Shown here one piece after another: positions 49,689 through 55,735 of a stretch of DNA of 64,000 nucleotides. The stretch is from assembly GCF_002067135.1 (NCBI RefSeq), contig NZ_CP020105.1, positions 2,542,001 through 2,606,000 of the forward strand, in the 5' to 3' direction. Source of the stretch: Spirosoma rigui. Its GTDB lineage: Bacteria > Bacteroidota > Bacteroidia > Cytophagales > Spirosomataceae. Under the pieces are notes generated by a model. That model had not been told where the DNA came from. It saw only the letters and a list, made by a program, of their open reading frames with translations, and did no database searches. The position numbers and the translations under genes are program-made. Position 1 is the stretch's first letter; the number at the start of each line of letters is the position of its first letter.

Positions 49689-50795
49689 TTACGGCCGTGA
49701 GTAAAGCATTGACGGGTCATTTACCGTTATGTTGACCAGTACGAACCCGGCTGCGCCCCGTAGCAGGTGTCCCCGCATCTTTAGCTGACTGATGGTCGTT
49801 ACTGTGCCGTTGGTAAACCACCAGGCGGTGTACAGCGTACGCCCGCGCCTGCGGAGTTCGCCAACGTAGGCGGGGTGCCCATTTACCATTCGTTCACTAA
49901 CGCGATGAAGGTCATAACCACTGCCTTGCCAGCAGGCCATTGGACTGTGGTGTAAGCTGAACCAGTCTGGCTGGGGCTTCAAATAAATAAGCACACCCGG
50001 CCTGGTCAGCTGAACAAAGCCACCCGCCAGTTTTTTACGTCGGTAGCGCCGACCGTCCTCATTCGCGAATCCTGCCTCTTTCAGCAGAGAATTGGTCGTC
50101 GTGGTCCTTGTTTCGGGTATGGTGAGTTTGCTGAATACCCATAGCGCCAGGGCCAGCGGGAACAGCCACCAGCCAGCAAGCCTGATTCCCTGACGGGGAG
50201 GGGTAGCACTCGCCCGCCCAAGCCGTTGCACTAGCCAGCGGGCCAGCAGCCAGGCGGGAAGCCAGGCATAGACACCTATGCAGATCAACCCGATCAGCTC
50301 GTGTGCCCACGAATCGGGCATGGCGCTGAATAAGACCAGCAGTGCAATTCGGAACAGATTGCACAGAACCGTCAGCCCGAACGCGCTTACTGAGTACAGT
50401 ACGGCCCAACCCGCCGGTAGCCGTTTCTGCTGCGCTTTCTCCTGCCCGATGAGAAAAAACAAAGCGACCAGAACCGACACGCCGGTCAACTGCAAACCCA
50501 TGCAGGCCGGGTCAACGGCCATCTCGACTCCATCCCTGATCAGTACGTTTCCCTGCGTTGCTACGTCCAGTCCGGCCAGCCTCAGGCAGTAGCCTGCCCA
50601 CGCGCTGAGCTGTAACCGGATTGGAAAAGTAAACAGGGTCGATATGTAGCGCAAACCGGGGGAGAGCAACAACAAACCGAACAGGCGGTTCAGCCATTGG
50701 CGCTGCCAGCCTGAGTGGGCTGGCTTTTGGCCCGAGACGGCCAAAAAGGCGACGAGAAGAATGACCAGGAGTGTGGTCAGGTCAGGCAGTGGCAT
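49689..50795 (-). CDS. xrtN: Exosortase N with fused EpsI-like domain
   Basis: 368 residues from the ATG at 50795, which overlaps the end of the VIT gene by 14 bases; an alternative start at 50822 would add nine residues. Residues about 1-195 form the eight-helix exosortase core with the catalytic triad Cys98 (DPACMGLQLTG), Arg149 (NLFRIALLVLF) and His165 (WAHELIGL). Exosortases cut and attach envelope proteins with a PEP-CTERM-like tail. After a last helix (210-222) comes an EpsI-like periplasmic domain (about 225-368) with HHSPMACWQGSGY, containing the expected His and Cys. The adjoining substrate and the overlap identify this as the exosortase N type. Confidence 0.92.
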   Translation of the reverse strand: MPLPDLTTLLVILLVAFLAVSGQKPAHSGWQRQWLNRLFGLLLLSPGLRYISTLFTFPIRLQLSAWAGYCLRLAGLDVATQGNVLIRDGVEMAVDPACMGLQLTGVSVLVALFFLIGQEKAQQKRLPAGWAVLYSVSAFGLTVLCNLFRIALLVLFSAMPDSWAHELIGLICIGVYAWLPAWLLARWLVQRLGRASATPPRQGIRLAGWWLFPLALALWVFSKLTIPETRTTTTNSLLKEAGFANEDGRRYRRKKLAGGFVQLTRPGVLIYLKPQPDWFSLHHSPMACWQGSGYDLHRVSERMVNGHPAYVGELRRRGRTLYTAWWFTNGTVTTISQLKMRGHLLRGAAGFVLVNITVNDPSMLYSRP

Positions 50796-53424
50796 GGCGT
50801 TTTTTCCAGACTGTCCAGCCAATTAATAGGGCAACCATGACCAGCAACGCCCATTCATGGGGCTCGGGTACCGCGCCTTCCTGTTTCAGTGTGGCATTAT
50901 CGAGTCCCGAATTGTCTTTTACGATGCCGAAGCGGTCATAGTCGGCGGACGATTCGAGCACGGCGAAACTCGACAACGGCGAAACGACATGGGCTTGCTG
51001 CGCTTCGTGGATTAGGGAGTCAGTTTGGTAGTTCTGATCGAAATAGTGGCGTCCAATGCGCTGCAGCAGGTGATTATACATAAACAGCCGGGCCAGGTGA
51101 TCAGGCGCGGTGTCATCCAGCACTGCTGGCGTTGGCTTCTGCACCTGACGAATGGCCATGCCGGCCTCGGCTAAGGGTACGAAATCGGTTTGGTCAGGCC
51201 GACGGGGAAACGGATGAGCGTTGACTACGTGATTGATGAGATCGGTCGTTGAACCCTGCCTGACCATCACGACGCGCAGCTCGGCCAGGGTTCTCAGGTA
51301 AGGCGATACAAGCGCACCAAGGCAAAATGTCCGGATAGGGGTAATCTGATCCGCTGTCTGCTGCATACGGGTAGCAAAGGCGCTCCCCGTCAGGTCGCTC
51401 AGTGTGGGCGATGCTTTGGTACCTTTGGTTATCAGCAACGCTGTTGCCGGCTGCCGGATTAGATAGAGCGGAAAAAGGCTGAACTGCTGCCGGGCCAGCC
51501 GGTGATAGGTTGCATCCAGATCCGCTTCGGTCAGTTGCGTCAGGCCGTCTTCGAACACCCATACCCGGTTGGGGCAGCGTCGATACGCTTCCCGAAATAC
51601 AGTTTTAAGCTCGTCTAGTTTCCAGGCTGCGTTCAGATCGAGGTAGATGTCGGCGGGCTGGAAAAATTGAATCGCTTCCTGATACGGTTCAACCCGGTAC
51701 GCCTTGTTGTCGAGAACGAACGACTTGGCCGACAGGGCCGGGGCTGCCATCCGGATCGTCCAGTCGGGCGTGTAACTGCCTTCGTGCGTCAGGACTTTCC
51801 CGGTCTGCCTGTCCAGATTCAGGGAAGGAACTACGGTGTTGGGTGCCTGGGTAAATTCAACATGGATCAATTCATTTGCTGACGTAGCCGAGGGTCCGTC
51901 GAAGCGGGGATTCTGATATAGTAATTGTCCATTCGTCAGCGTCAACGGCGATGAAATGCCCAATTTCACCCGCCGTTCCGCATGGGCCGGGCAGGGGAAT
52001 ACCCGTAGCGTAATTCGATTCCCTTCCCGCCAGGATACAATCGAAGGGTCACGCGAAGATTGTCTCGATTCAACATTCACGATCTGGTGATAAGCCGAGT
52101 CGGCTCTGGCTGCGGTAGTCAGGCGGGCGGGTTCTTCCCGACCATTCACCCACAGCGACATTGACGAGATGGCCGAGCCCGGCGGCAAGTAAAAGGTGTA
52201 CAGTGCTTCTTCGGTGGTCGCGGATGATTTATTGACGATATAAAGTGTTTTCTCCGTATAGCTCAATCGGAACTGTGGCCAGATCCGAACCTGAGAAACG
52301 ACACGTTTGGTCGTCAGATTGGCACCGCTCCAAAATTTCCTTTCTGTCATGTGGCGGTTGTCCTGCCATACGTTCAGTACTTTCAGGTAATCGGCATTGG
52401 AGAGGGCATGGCTCGGAAAAAAATGCGTGGCAATGATGGATAGAGGATCGTGAAGCTGGTTGTCGTCCCAACCGGTCCGTTCGGTTCCCAGGCCAAACAG
52501 GCCACCGCCCTGGTTGTCGGATTTCTGGCTACTACGCTGACCGGCCAGCAGAAACTGGCGGGTAAACCAGTTGGGTGTTACCTGTTGAGCAATGAGTACC
52601 CACTCAGGCATGTCGCTGGTTTTCTGAACAAGAGCCTTCATCCGGATGTCTTCCAGCGTATGCAAATGGCTGACCCAGCCCGTCAGAAAAATAGTTACTG
52701 CCACAAGCGGGATCAGCAGGCCAACGCCAACGCCCAGCCGCAGGTGTTCTTCCAGTTTGGCATCCTGCCAGATGCGTTTGATCAGGGTAATGGAAAACGC
52801 CAGCGGAACGAACGTGTGCACCGAAAGGCCGAGGCCAACCAGCAGTGGAAAGCTAATGGGATACAGTTCTCCTACGTACAGCGCCATGTAGACAAACAAC
52901 ACCGCGCCAACTGTCAGCACCGCATACAGAAGCTGCTGGACCCGCACAGGCATGGCTTCTTTCCATGCATAGCCTATCATAGAACTATTCACCAGGAACA
53001 ACGCCCCGCCAAACCACCCGACCGACTCCTGAAAAACGGGTAGCTCACGGTTCAAAGCGTAAGCACTGATCAGCCACAGGATCAGGCAAAGCCAGCGCGT
53101 TGGTCGGCGTTTGCTGTAGCTGGGATGGCGGGCTTTGAAATACCCGCCTGAAACCAGTGGGTACGAGAAACTCAAAGCGACGCCGTAGTGCAGCATGACC
53201 ATCAGACTGTTCAGGGTGCTGCCTTCGCGCAGTAGATCATACAGGAGAAAGGCCCCGCCTGATGACACGACCAGGACAAACCCGGTGTAGTAGGTGGTGC
53301 TCGCAAAGGGCTTCAGCAGCGATTGCAACGCTGGTTGGGGTTCATTACCGGGTTCTGGCAATGACGTGGCAACGGGTGCCGGACTGGTAGACGGGTGCTG
53401 AACCAGCTGATTTTCTGATTCCAT
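50782..53424 (-). CDS. XrtN system VIT domain protein (exosortase substrate)
   Basis: 880 residues from the ATG at 53424. About seven membrane helices occupy 45-250, then comes a VIT (vault/inter-alpha-trypsin) domain near 378-495 (RIWPQFRLSYTEKTLYIVN, TFYLPPGSAISSMSLWVNG, then RITLRVFPCPAHAERRVKLG), then a large soluble part. The C-terminus is a sorting signal: VPEPHEW at 852-858, a hydrophobic helix (ALLVMVALLIGWTVW) and a basic end (KKRHATA). This is the pattern recognised by exosortases, so it is the expected sole substrate of the adjacent XrtN. Its function is unknown. The palindrome just before the start codon marks its own transcription unit. Confidence 0.92.
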   Translation of the reverse strand: MESENQLVQHPSTSPAPVATSLPEPGNEPQPALQSLLKPFASTTYYTGFVLVVSSGGAFLLYDLLREGSTLNSLMVMLHYGVALSFSYPLVSGGYFKARHPSYSKRRPTRWLCLILWLISAYALNRELPVFQESVGWFGGALFLVNSSMIGYAWKEAMPVRVQQLLYAVLTVGAVLFVYMALYVGELYPISFPLLVGLGLSVHTFVPLAFSITLIKRIWQDAKLEEHLRLGVGVGLLIPLVAVTIFLTGWVSHLHTLEDIRMKALVQKTSDMPEWVLIAQQVTPNWFTRQFLLAGQRSSQKSDNQGGGLFGLGTERTGWDDNQLHDPLSIIATHFFPSHALSNADYLKVLNVWQDNRHMTERKFWSGANLTTKRVVSQVRIWPQFRLSYTEKTLYIVNKSSATTEEALYTFYLPPGSAISSMSLWVNGREEPARLTTAARADSAYHQIVNVESRQSSRDPSIVSWREGNRITLRVFPCPAHAERRVKLGISSPLTLTNGQLLYQNPRFDGPSATSANELIHVEFTQAPNTVVPSLNLDRQTGKVLTHEGSYTPDWTIRMAAPALSAKSFVLDNKAYRVEPYQEAIQFFQPADIYLDLNAAWKLDELKTVFREAYRRCPNRVWVFEDGLTQLTEADLDATYHRLARQQFSLFPLYLIRQPATALLITKGTKASPTLSDLTGSAFATRMQQTADQITPIRTFCLGALVSPYLRTLAELRVVMVRQGSTTDLINHVVNAHPFPRRPDQTDFVPLAEAGMAIRQVQKPTPAVLDDTAPDHLARLFMYNHLLQRIGRHYFDQNYQTDSLIHEAQQAHVVSPLSSFAVLESSADYDRFGIVKDNSGLDNATLKQEGAVPEPHEWALLVMVALLIGWTVWKKRHATA

Positions 53425-53430
53425 AAAAGT

Positions 53431-53447
53431 ACTTTGTTTTTCAAAGT
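53431..53447 (-). promoter_or_regulatory. Palindromic operator candidate before the VIT gene
   Basis: ACTTTG-ttttt-CAAAGT, a perfect 6-base inverted repeat 6 bases upstream of the ATG at 53424. It shares its extended flank (AAAGTACTTTG) with the site at 55553-55571, which precedes the first gene of the upstream unit. The arm TACTTTG also resembles a -7 box, so the palindrome may overlap the promoter, as expected for a repressor site. Confidence 0.65.
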
Positions 53448-53469
53448 GAATAATCAAAAGGGCATATGC

Positions 53470-53501
53470 TTTCACGCGTCTGAATAACCAGACGCGTGAA
53501 A
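53470..53501 (-). terminator. Hairpin between the regulator gene and the VIT gene
   Basis: Perfect 13-base arms (TTTCACGCGTCTG and CAGACGCGTGAAA) around a 6-base loop, starting 18 bases after the regulator stop. It divides the minus-strand cluster into two transcription units; no strong T-run follows, so some read-through is likely. Confidence 0.8.
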
Positions 53502-53518
53502 CAGGTTGTAGCCAGAAG

Positions 53519-53815
53519 CTATACGTTCTTTATGAAGTCTTCGAGGGCATTCAGGTGTTCGGAAAATGCCTGCCGGCCACTCGCCGTGGCGGAGTACGTG
53601 GTATTGGGTTTTCGACCAATGAATTGTTTCTGGACGGCCACATAGCCCGACTCCTCCAGTGCCCGCAGGTGGGTGGCGAGGTTGCCGTCGGTGAGGCCGA
53701 GGAGTTCTTTGAGCGCGTTGAAACTCTGGGTGTCGTTAACCATCAGGACCGACATGATATTCAGGCGCGCTTTGCTCTCGAATGCTTTATTAAATTGAGC
53801 CAGCAGGTCTTTCAT
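53519..53815 (-). CDS. Winged-helix transcriptional regulator
   Basis: 98 residues, a compact DNA-binding domain. The helix-turn-helix lies near 20-60 (SVLMVNDTQSFNALKELLGL, then TDGNLATHLRALEESGYV as recognition helix) and the wing is FIGRKPNTTYSATASG. It resembles the small stand-alone winged-helix family used by Bacteroidota beside membrane proteins. Its start overlaps the stop of the membrane protein gene by 4 bases, so the two are coupled. I infer that it binds the two palindromes of this locus; it has no sensor domain of its own, so the membrane partner may supply the signal. Confidence 0.9.
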   Translation of the reverse strand: MKDLLAQFNKAFESKARLNIMSVLMVNDTQSFNALKELLGLTDGNLATHLRALEESGYVAVQKQFIGRKPNTTYSATASGRQAFSEHLNALEDFIKNV

Positions 53816-54459
53816 GCGGTATTTCGTTCGTATTTATAGTACATCGCCAGGCCATAGACGATATGTAAGAGACCAAAGCCCACCGCCCAGGCCAGCAGGT
53901 TATAGCCCGGCCAGAACAGCGATAACAGGCCCAGGCCAATTTCACAGTAAGCCAGCGACTCCACATCGCGCAGCGTGTACTTGCTGCCATTGAGCAGGGC
54001 GAGGCCGTAAAAGATAAGCGTGGCAGGGAGGGCCAGCCAGATAAGATCGTAGCGGAACAGCGCCAGGCAAAAGAGGCCCCCGGCAGCCAGCGGTACCGCC
54101 ATTGCCCAGACGAGCCGTTTGGAACTGGCATTCCACACCGTCTGTCCCTGCCGACGCGCCTTCCGGACCGTGAAGTAGGTACCCGCCAGCAGCGCGCCTA
54201 CCATTACGGCCAACCCTACGGTAATGAGAAACTGAGCGATCTGGGCATGAGCTGCCGTATCGTAAAGTTCGAGCCGGTTGTAGTTGAGGACCCGGAACCA
54301 GTCGGTTTGAAGCCGGCCGTACACAACGCCTGCTCCGGCCAGCGCCACTACTCCCGCCGATACGCCCGACAGGCCACTTAGCGACAGAAATTTGGCCGAG
54401 CGCTCCATCAGACTGCGGATTTCCGTCAGCGTCTGTAAATGTTCACGCGATTCGTACAT
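53812..54459 (-). CDS. Membrane protein of unknown function, partner of the regulator
   Basis: 215 residues. The cytoplasmic N-terminus (MYESREHLQTLTEIRSLMER) is a short amphipathic helix, followed by about six helices in two groups: near 27-50 (SGVSAGVVALAGAGVVYG), 75-98, 115-145 and 160-205. No transport or enzyme motif. Pairs of a small winged-helix regulator and a six-helix membrane protein overlapping by ATGA are frequent in this phylum. The membrane protein may sense the envelope and control the regulator (inference). Confidence 0.75.
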   Translation of the reverse strand: MYESREHLQTLTEIRSLMERSAKFLSLSGLSGVSAGVVALAGAGVVYGRLQTDWFRVLNYNRLELYDTAAHAQIAQFLITVGLAVMVGALLAGTYFTVRKARRQGQTVWNASSKRLVWAMAVPLAAGGLFCLALFRYDLIWLALPATLIFYGLALLNGSKYTLRDVESLAYCEIGLGLLSLFWPGYNLLAWAVGFGLLHIVYGLAMYYKYERNTA

Positions 54460-54488
54460 AGTAAGTCAATAATCAACAGTCGTTATAA

Positions 54489-54860
54489 TCAGCTAAGGAG
54501 GATGTCGAGCAGCCGCCCGCCCAGAATGAATAATCCCACGGTAACGGCAACAATGGCCAGAATCAGGACTGCACCGGAAGCCATGTCTTTGATCGCCTTG
54601 ATTTGAGGGTGAATACCCGGCGACACGAAATCACACAGTTTTTCGAGGGCGGTGTTGATGGCTTCTGCCGCCCAGACCAGCCCGATCTGCGTGACCAGGA
54701 TGGCCCACTCAACCCGGCTGATTTCTAGCCAGGAACCCAGCACCACAACCAGTATGGCGACGAGTAAATGCACTCTGGCGTTGTTCTCGTAGCGAAACAG
54801 ATCAACGATTCCCTGTCCCGCAAACCGAAAACTGCGCACGACCTTACGCCCGTTTATCAT
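54489..54860 (-). CDS. dgkA: Diacylglycerol kinase (DgkA family)
   Basis: 123 residues, a three-helix membrane enzyme that phosphorylates diacylglycerol or a related lipid such as undecaprenol. The N-terminal amphipathic helix (SFRFAGQGIVDLFRYENNAR) is followed by the active-site motif EAINTALEKLCD and by KAIKDMASGAVL with the conserved Lys-Asp. The size and motifs fit the Gram-positive-type UndK/DgkA family. It overlaps the DUF1361 gene by 17 bases. In an exosortase locus it might recycle the lipid carrier used for protein or glycan attachment (inference). Confidence 0.93.
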   Translation of the reverse strand: MINGRKVVRSFRFAGQGIVDLFRYENNARVHLLVAILVVVLGSWLEISRVEWAILVTQIGLVWAAEAINTALEKLCDFVSPGIHPQIKAIKDMASGAVLILAIVAVTVGLFILGGRLLDILLS

Positions 54861-55542
54861 AATCGACGTACCAGTAGAACGCTACGTACAAAACAACCAG
54901 CACAAACCCGTAGGAAAGCGTTAGCTTAAGGCTTAAATGGTCGTGAAAAACACGGGACAGGGCATCAACCAACGCAAATGGCTTCGTTAGTATATCCCAG
55001 CTGTTCCACCGACCAAACCGCCCCAGGTAAATGCCAAACCCCGAAAGCAGCTGAGTGCCGGTCATGAGCGCCCAGGCGATCCAGGCACCCGTAAGCGGAC
55101 GCACCATTCGGTGGACGATGAGTGTTGAGTAGAGGCCAGCCAGCAAACCCGTCTGCGCAAATAGAAAAAGCGTCATCGTGTCGAACCAGAGCAGCGGGGC
55201 ATCGACGTTTTTGATGTGAAAAAGGTCCGTGATGATGTAGGGTGCGTTGGGCAAAAATGCCAGCCATACCGCCAGACCACCCGCCATGAGCCAGCGGCTG
55301 AGAAAACCCGCCGTGCGCAAATCCCGCAGGACCAGCACAACGCCCAGTGGAAAAAAAGCCAGAAACAGGTTCCAGGTCAGCATGATGAAAAACCACCAGT
55401 TACCCGTTAACAGCCCCCGGGTGGTTACCAGACACAATCCGGCCATGGCTAAACCCGCCAGCGCTACCAGCCCTTTGCCGGCCTTGAGGTGGCCCGGCTG
55501 CTCAATCAGCGTGCGGGCAAATGGAGAAAGCGATTGTTGCAT
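54844..55542 (-). CDS. DUF1361 family membrane protein
   Basis: 232 residues in about seven helices. DUF1361 marks are FLPNAPYIITDLFHI near 100-114 with the preceding AVWLAFLPN, and GIYLGRFGRWNSWDI near 172-186. The function of the family is unknown. It is the first gene of the unit that also encodes DgkA, the membrane partner and the regulator, and its start codon sits 10 bases after the palindrome at 55553-55571. Confidence 0.88.
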   Translation of the reverse strand: MQQSLSPFARTLIEQPGHLKAGKGLVALAGLAMAGLCLVTTRGLLTGNWWFFIMLTWNLFLAFFPLGVVLVLRDLRTAGFLSRWLMAGGLAVWLAFLPNAPYIITDLFHIKNVDAPLLWFDTMTLFLFAQTGLLAGLYSTLIVHRMVRPLTGAWIAWALMTGTQLLSGFGIYLGRFGRWNSWDILTKPFALVDALSRVFHDHLSLKLTLSYGFVLVVLYVAFYWYVDYDKRA

Positions 55543-55552
55543 GGATTTAAAG

Positions 55553-55571
55553 TACTTTGAGTTGCAAAGTA
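55553..55571 (-). promoter_or_regulatory. Palindromic operator candidate before the DUF1361 gene
   Basis: TACTTTG-agttg-CAAAGTA, a perfect 7-base inverted repeat 10 bases upstream of the ATG at 55542. It matches the site before the VIT gene in both arms, spacing and flank. Together the two sites head the two units of the exosortase N locus. Confidence 0.65.
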
Positions 55572-55735
55572 GAGCAGCGTTTTTTGATCCACCAACTAAT
55601 TCGACTGATTTCTTTTAAATGGTATCCCCGGACGAATGGACCAGCGTACGTAAGGCTGGTGAACAGGGTGTCGTAGGTGGCTGCTGGTCAACTGATTGAC
55701 AAAGAAAATAGTCATTAACGAGCCAACGCGTTACT

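Follow-up and report, generated by a model that had tools for sequence, protein, structure and literature searches.

Two copies of one palindrome, which precede the two adjacent transcription units of an exosortase N locus in Spirosoma rigui, are candidate binding sites and very probably those of the small winged-helix regulator encoded between them. With good confidence, we propose that a dimer of this HTH_34 protein on ACTTTG-N5-CAAAGT-ACTTT controls three units in the genome, that the site before its own unit serves autorepression, and that a co-encoded membrane protein acts as its sensor. Comparison across genomes shows that site, regulator and membrane protein go together and that the site stands before the XrtN unit.

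An exact pattern search of the window, the whole 64-kb stretch of DNA that was analysed, located ACTTTG-N5-CAAAGT at 53431-53447 and 55554-55570 with the common flank AAAGTACTTTG, in agreement with the original prediction of two palindromes of the same form and flank at these positions and of no third full copy in the window, where the exact search found none. Under a first-order Markov model, 0.0038 exact copies are expected per 64 kb, giving P ~7e-6 for two by chance. The whole 5.83-Mb genome contained only three exact copies, namely the two window sites and one at C1:298068, against none for the reversed-pattern control, which upholds the expectation that the 17-base motif would have few copies genome-wide. 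One-mismatch places in the same genome were rarer than those of the control (8 versus 18), so only exact own-genome copies are meaningful, and degenerate ones were not counted. Operator 1 (53426-53447, minus strand), which reads ACTTTGAAAAACAAAGTACTTT, precedes the VIT-xrtN unit, and operator 2 (55549-55570, minus strand), which reads ACTTTGCAACTCAAAGTACTTT, precedes the unit of DUF1361, dgkA, membrane protein and regulator; they score 35.8 and 35.2 bits, respectively, with a weight matrix trained on a set containing both. The core sites end 6 and 11 bases short of the start codons, so that the first of the predicted distances (6 and 10 bases) stood and the second was one base short. The third site, 2.3 Mb away, heads a gene for a 419-aa, probably polytopic protein without a Pfam family, relatives of which carry the site in other genomes and stand directly behind the regulator in some loci. 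Some sites occur in tandem: a degenerate second copy with CAAAGTACTTTT kept lies ~115 bp beyond the third site (L001, about 1609-1636), and two family genomes (G032 and G076) each hold two exact copies 121 bp apart.

All genes of the locus lie on the minus strand, and their calls are borne out by Pfam and TIGR scores. The regulator (53519-53815, 98 aa), a putative binder of both operators, matches HTH_34 (PF13601) at 100.8 bits, above the gathering cut-off of 27, and is the sole above-cut-off match in the genome. Its start is overlapped by 4 bases by the gene of the partner membrane protein (53812-54459, 215 aa, no Pfam family), preceded by the diacylglycerol kinase gene dgkA (54489-54860; PF01219, DAGK_prokar) and by the first gene of the unit, encoding a DUF1361 membrane protein (54844-55542; PF07099). 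The second unit comprises a VIT-domain substrate of the XrtN system (50782-53424; TIGR04477, 794.1 bits, curated cut-off 250) and the adjacent exosortase N (49689-50822; TIGR04476, 241.6 bits, curated cut-off 200), and with both proteins above the curated cut-offs the pair belongs to the described exosortase N/VIT system. Between the two units, the predicted perfect 13-bp hairpin with a 6-base loop was found at 53470-53501 by stem and fold computation, and the surrounding 73-base stretch folds at -26.1 kcal/mol. The hairpin was absent from the output of the terminator scan and has no immediate T run, with TTTT following 10 bases past the stem; it may signal the end of the regulator unit.

The palindrome proved to be conserved in related loci. 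The extended site was searched as exact ACTTTG-N5-CAAAGTACTTT, with the reversed pattern as control, in 150 genomes of the family and 295 of the class, which we name Spirosomaceae and Bacteroidia after the named regulator loci. In the family set, 107 of the 150 genomes carried the site (2 matches overall for the control) and 129 a regulator match; the site occurred in 107 of the 129 genomes with a regulator and in none of the 21 without, counts taken from lists compared by eye, from which the family table for the Fisher test was drawn up, one of the 21 (taken as G147) being assigned by difference. Within genus g12, the two of 16 genomes that have the regulator also have the site, and the remaining 14 have neither. 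In the class set, the site was found in 66 of the 295 genomes (control, 0), all of them among the 93 with a regulator ortholog, defined by matches at 1.1e-37 or better, with the next match, to paralogs, at 6.5e-24. As the genomes are related, the Fisher values for this association overstate independence. The exact extended site is missing in 27 of the 93 class genomes with an ortholog and in 22 of the 129 family genomes with a regulator match.

A third set of named loci was chosen by the regulator protein alone and, being the best 80 of 584 regulator loci, leans towards the window's relatives; it includes Spirosoma, Flavobacterium, Dyadobacter, Pontibacter, Butyricimonas and uncultured Bacteroidales. 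Here, 67 of the 80 loci had an exact core site near the regulator, with 3 sites in the other 813,757 bases. The weight matrix, partly trained on the loci that it scored, placed a site in 76 of these 80 best loci, nine of them with near-copies at the same two places and no exact core, and found none in four, three of which are Runella. Among 114 sites listed, 82 lie near the module and all 82 are oriented in its direction. Gene starts were set by a simple longest-frame caller that missed the regulator frame in some of the 80 loci, and the counts that matter rest on regulator match coordinates, not on called frames. One record titled Flavobacterium sp. SUN052 (L144) holds a locus built in full like that of the window (DUF1361, dgkA, membrane protein, regulator, VIT and xrtN) with both sites and a regulator 77% identical, representing either a locus transfer or a mislabelled record. 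Assembled genomes titled Ignavibacteria (L188, L197 and L202) contain regulator relatives of 61-62% identity, which may reflect a unit extending beyond the class or mislabelled bins.

The membrane protein was found in exactly the 93 class genomes that have the regulator, directly upstream of it and on the same strand in all 93, with a median gap between matches of 15 bases and a largest of 662. The conserved core of the system is this protein together with the HTH_34 regulator, with targets that vary. Its predicted structure (pLDDT 88.8) has an N-terminal helix, which bears a conserved EIR..MERS stretch, and six long helices, and a structure search returned no PDB match at E <= 0.001. A role as sensor or holder of the regulator fits this arrangement and is likely. 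The partner is ~370-380 aa long in three genomes of genus g32 and in Dyadobacter loci (L092, L093, L097, L157, L163 and L190), where it carries about 165 additional residues at the C terminus.

The regulator model (pLDDT 94.9) contains a helix at residues 43-55, which by position would be the recognition helix, and strands at 59-66 and 69-76 that would form the wing. At the place of this helix, DGNL is invariant in 49 aligned orthologs, followed by A and, two places on, H in at least 90% of them, whereas 20 paralogs read GN[LI]S-x-Q. None of these 20 had a site in the fetched flanks (1.5 kb; one shortened by a contig end), and two of them (L265 and L266) come from genomes that also hold an ortholog. 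The sole PDB sequence relative of the regulator at E <= 0.001 is PH1061 (1UB9; E 3.8e-13), and the best Foldseek matches of the model are the PadR protein Rv3488 and 1UB9, while the PadR Pfam score (PF03551) of 20.3 bits is below the cut-off of 27.

A VIT substrate match was present in 22 of the 150 family genomes, and among the 21 measurable genomes, the window's included, the site preceded the VIT gene in 18, with an exact core in 15 and one mismatch in 3. The VIT gene in one of the other genomes (G065) is without a site, and two (G027 and G102) have no site within 400 bases of the VIT match start, their VIT gene lying ~1.6 kb past a site that stands before a different gene. Six of the 18 VIT sites belong to genes at least 300 kb from the regulator or on another contig, which in draft genomes is no proof of distance, and five of the six come from genus g16; that these remote genes have the site suggests that, in the family, the exosortase N unit keeps it when it is not the regulator's neighbour. 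Most regulator-bearing family genomes lack a VIT match, so XrtN is one target among several. Further genes with the site include CreD, DUF4153, DUF2809, an MpaB-like oxygenase and others; among the best 80 of 584 loci, a CreD (PF06123) gene follows the regulator within 3 kb in 41 and a VIT gene does so in 2. Genes right behind sites in L122, L135, L137 and L141 presumably encode proteins resembling CoQ4, a YiiX/NlpC-type amidase and an endonuclease/exonuclease/phosphatase protein. The original prediction of a shared operator read by a regulator of the same locus is supported in that the site tracks the regulator and heads most VIT genes; its restriction to the XrtN locus is too narrow, since the targets vary and a third site lies far outside the locus.

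To describe site anatomy, we collected 248 oriented sites, dropping those with fewer than three of the five letters of ACTTT, and retained 221 after removing near-copies. Left arm plus flank is T[TA]ACTTTG in 164 of the 221, 88% have A at the second spacer position, and the right arm is succeeded by a third half-site, ACTTT; the family and class sites were picked by the exact extended pattern, so the conservation of its fixed letters is partly by construction. In the best 80 of 584 loci, where ACTTT was not required in the search, sites stand behind the regulator in 50 loci and before it in 59, and an exact ACTTT accompanies 38 sites in the former position and 44 in the latter. The half-sites are 11 bp apart, which would position both recognition helices of a dimer on the same side of the DNA. 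The published flavobacterial sigma-A -7 box is TAnnTTTG at -12 to -5 (PMC9723704), and the left arm of the sites before the regulator unit fits a -7 box in many relatives. If this placement is valid here, transcription would begin with the final base of the spacer, right next to the right arm. At the same sites, a TTG stands where the -33 element is expected. Operator 2 has this TTG 25 bases upstream (55593-55595, minus strand), at the position enriched in related sites, and its putative -7 box, CTACTTTG, departs from T[TA]ACTTTG by a single letter.

The overlap of the arms with a -7 box, as originally proposed, is supported for the sites before the regulator unit (hereafter first sites) and less so for those behind the regulator (second sites), the type found before VIT-xrtN. 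In the 67 of the best 80 of 584 loci with an exact core, TTG occupied -26 to -24 in 53 of 60 first sites and in 0 of 50 second sites, whereas a T run of six or longer was present in 49 of 50 second sites and 3 of 60 first sites, being T7 or T8 in 45 of the 49. The distance from the T run to ACTTTG was 8 or 9 bases in all 49 (L142-L221), including four in which the run lies 73-291 bases past the regulator stop. The run is thus phased to the operator and not to the stop codon, and 36 of 37 second sites in other genomes have no hairpin of -10 kcal/mol or better at the place of the window hairpin; a reading of the run as a terminator tail was rejected. Nor is the T tract a general promoter trait, since a T6 run at that spacing accompanied only 3 of 1544 other TAnnTTTG boxes in the fetched loci, where no general T-tract promoter class was found. 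These features raise the alternative that the second site is not an ordinary repressed promoter and either belongs to a different promoter type helped by the regulator or forms a roadblock, where bound regulator would halt RNA polymerase that runs in from the first unit and holds only a weak U-rich hybrid. The roadblock would suit sites that immediately follow the regulator; an isolated T7 site (L023), however, with no same-strand frame of 80 aa that ends in the 1.1 kb before it, fits a promoter element better. In addition, five of the six remote VIT sites have TTGAC at -20 and no T6 run, and the window's own operator 1 has TTTT only, plus a hairpin, in place of the long T tract, leading us to regard this alternative as somewhat unlikely. 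Operator 1 also has no TTG at -25, and together with the second sites lacking TTG this means that a sigma-A promoter under VIT is not supported.

Two broader alternatives concern the identity of the site itself. The palindrome might be recognised by another, unlinked regulator, with the HTH_34 gene merely one of its targets, as the variable targets would allow. Against this, co-occurrence of site and ortholog is one-way without exception at two taxonomic depths, site and regulator come together in two of the 16 genomes of g12, and the recognition residues are distinct in the paralogs that lack a site, making an unlinked regulator improbable. The frequency of T[TA]ACTTTG might suit a strong promoter alone, in which a -7 box has an accidentally symmetric sequence after it. 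However, three copies in the genome do not make a general promoter, the right arm and ACTTT lie outside the TAnnTTTG consensus, and the operator is kept at second sites without the -33 TTG, so that we consider this reading highly improbable.

Taking the HTH_34 protein as the binder of the site, we infer binding, repression and sensing by the membrane protein as follows. The protein would bind ACTTTG-N5-CAAAGT-ACTTT as a dimer and control its own unit of DUF1361, dgkA, membrane protein and regulator, as well as the VIT-xrtN unit and the third, distant membrane-protein unit. The left arm of operator 2 would overlap a sigma-A-type -7 box, which in the window, as in relatives, has TTG at 25 bases on its upstream side. 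With the right arm next to the presumed start, bound protein would block transcription, resulting in autorepression. This arrangement, a palindromic operator at the regulator's own promoter and conserved with the regulator, is the one expected of an autoregulated winged-helix repressor. Sensing would likely fall to the co-encoded membrane protein with its six helices, which would release or hold the regulator on envelope change.

A winged-helix autoregulator with a palindromic operator is of an already known kind. LmrR and further PadR proteins act as dimers and use palindromes to repress the units that encode them, and the window regulator shares fold and size with PH1061 and with PadR-like and LmrR-like regulators but differs in the operator sequence and the fixed membrane partner. 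The CreBC-CreD regulon is controlled by a two-component system; it shares the CreD gene with many of the regulator loci, whereas the present system uses a one-gene winged-helix regulator with a membrane protein, and the window locus lacks CreD. Among the open-licence PubMed Central papers listed, we found no regulator of the exosortase N system and no recognisable description of this system of site, regulator and membrane protein. What seems to be new is the set of genes controlled, the constant pairing with a membrane protein and the phasing of a T tract to the second site.

The module appears to switch a small set of cell-envelope genes across a class. More tentatively, it may be an undescribed class-wide envelope control unit, in which one operator is used both over a sigma-A -7 box and, at target genes, behind a phased T tract, by polymerase halt or a T-tract promoter, and which took over exosortase N in this lineage. 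The conserved pair of operator contexts also lends itself to studies of promoter and T-tract function in Bacteroidota. For exosortase N sorting, these comparisons suggest a regulator, an operator and a small defined list of targets, and they link exosortase N with CreD, DUF4153, DUF1361 and diacylglycerol kinase as envelope genes that have one site in common.
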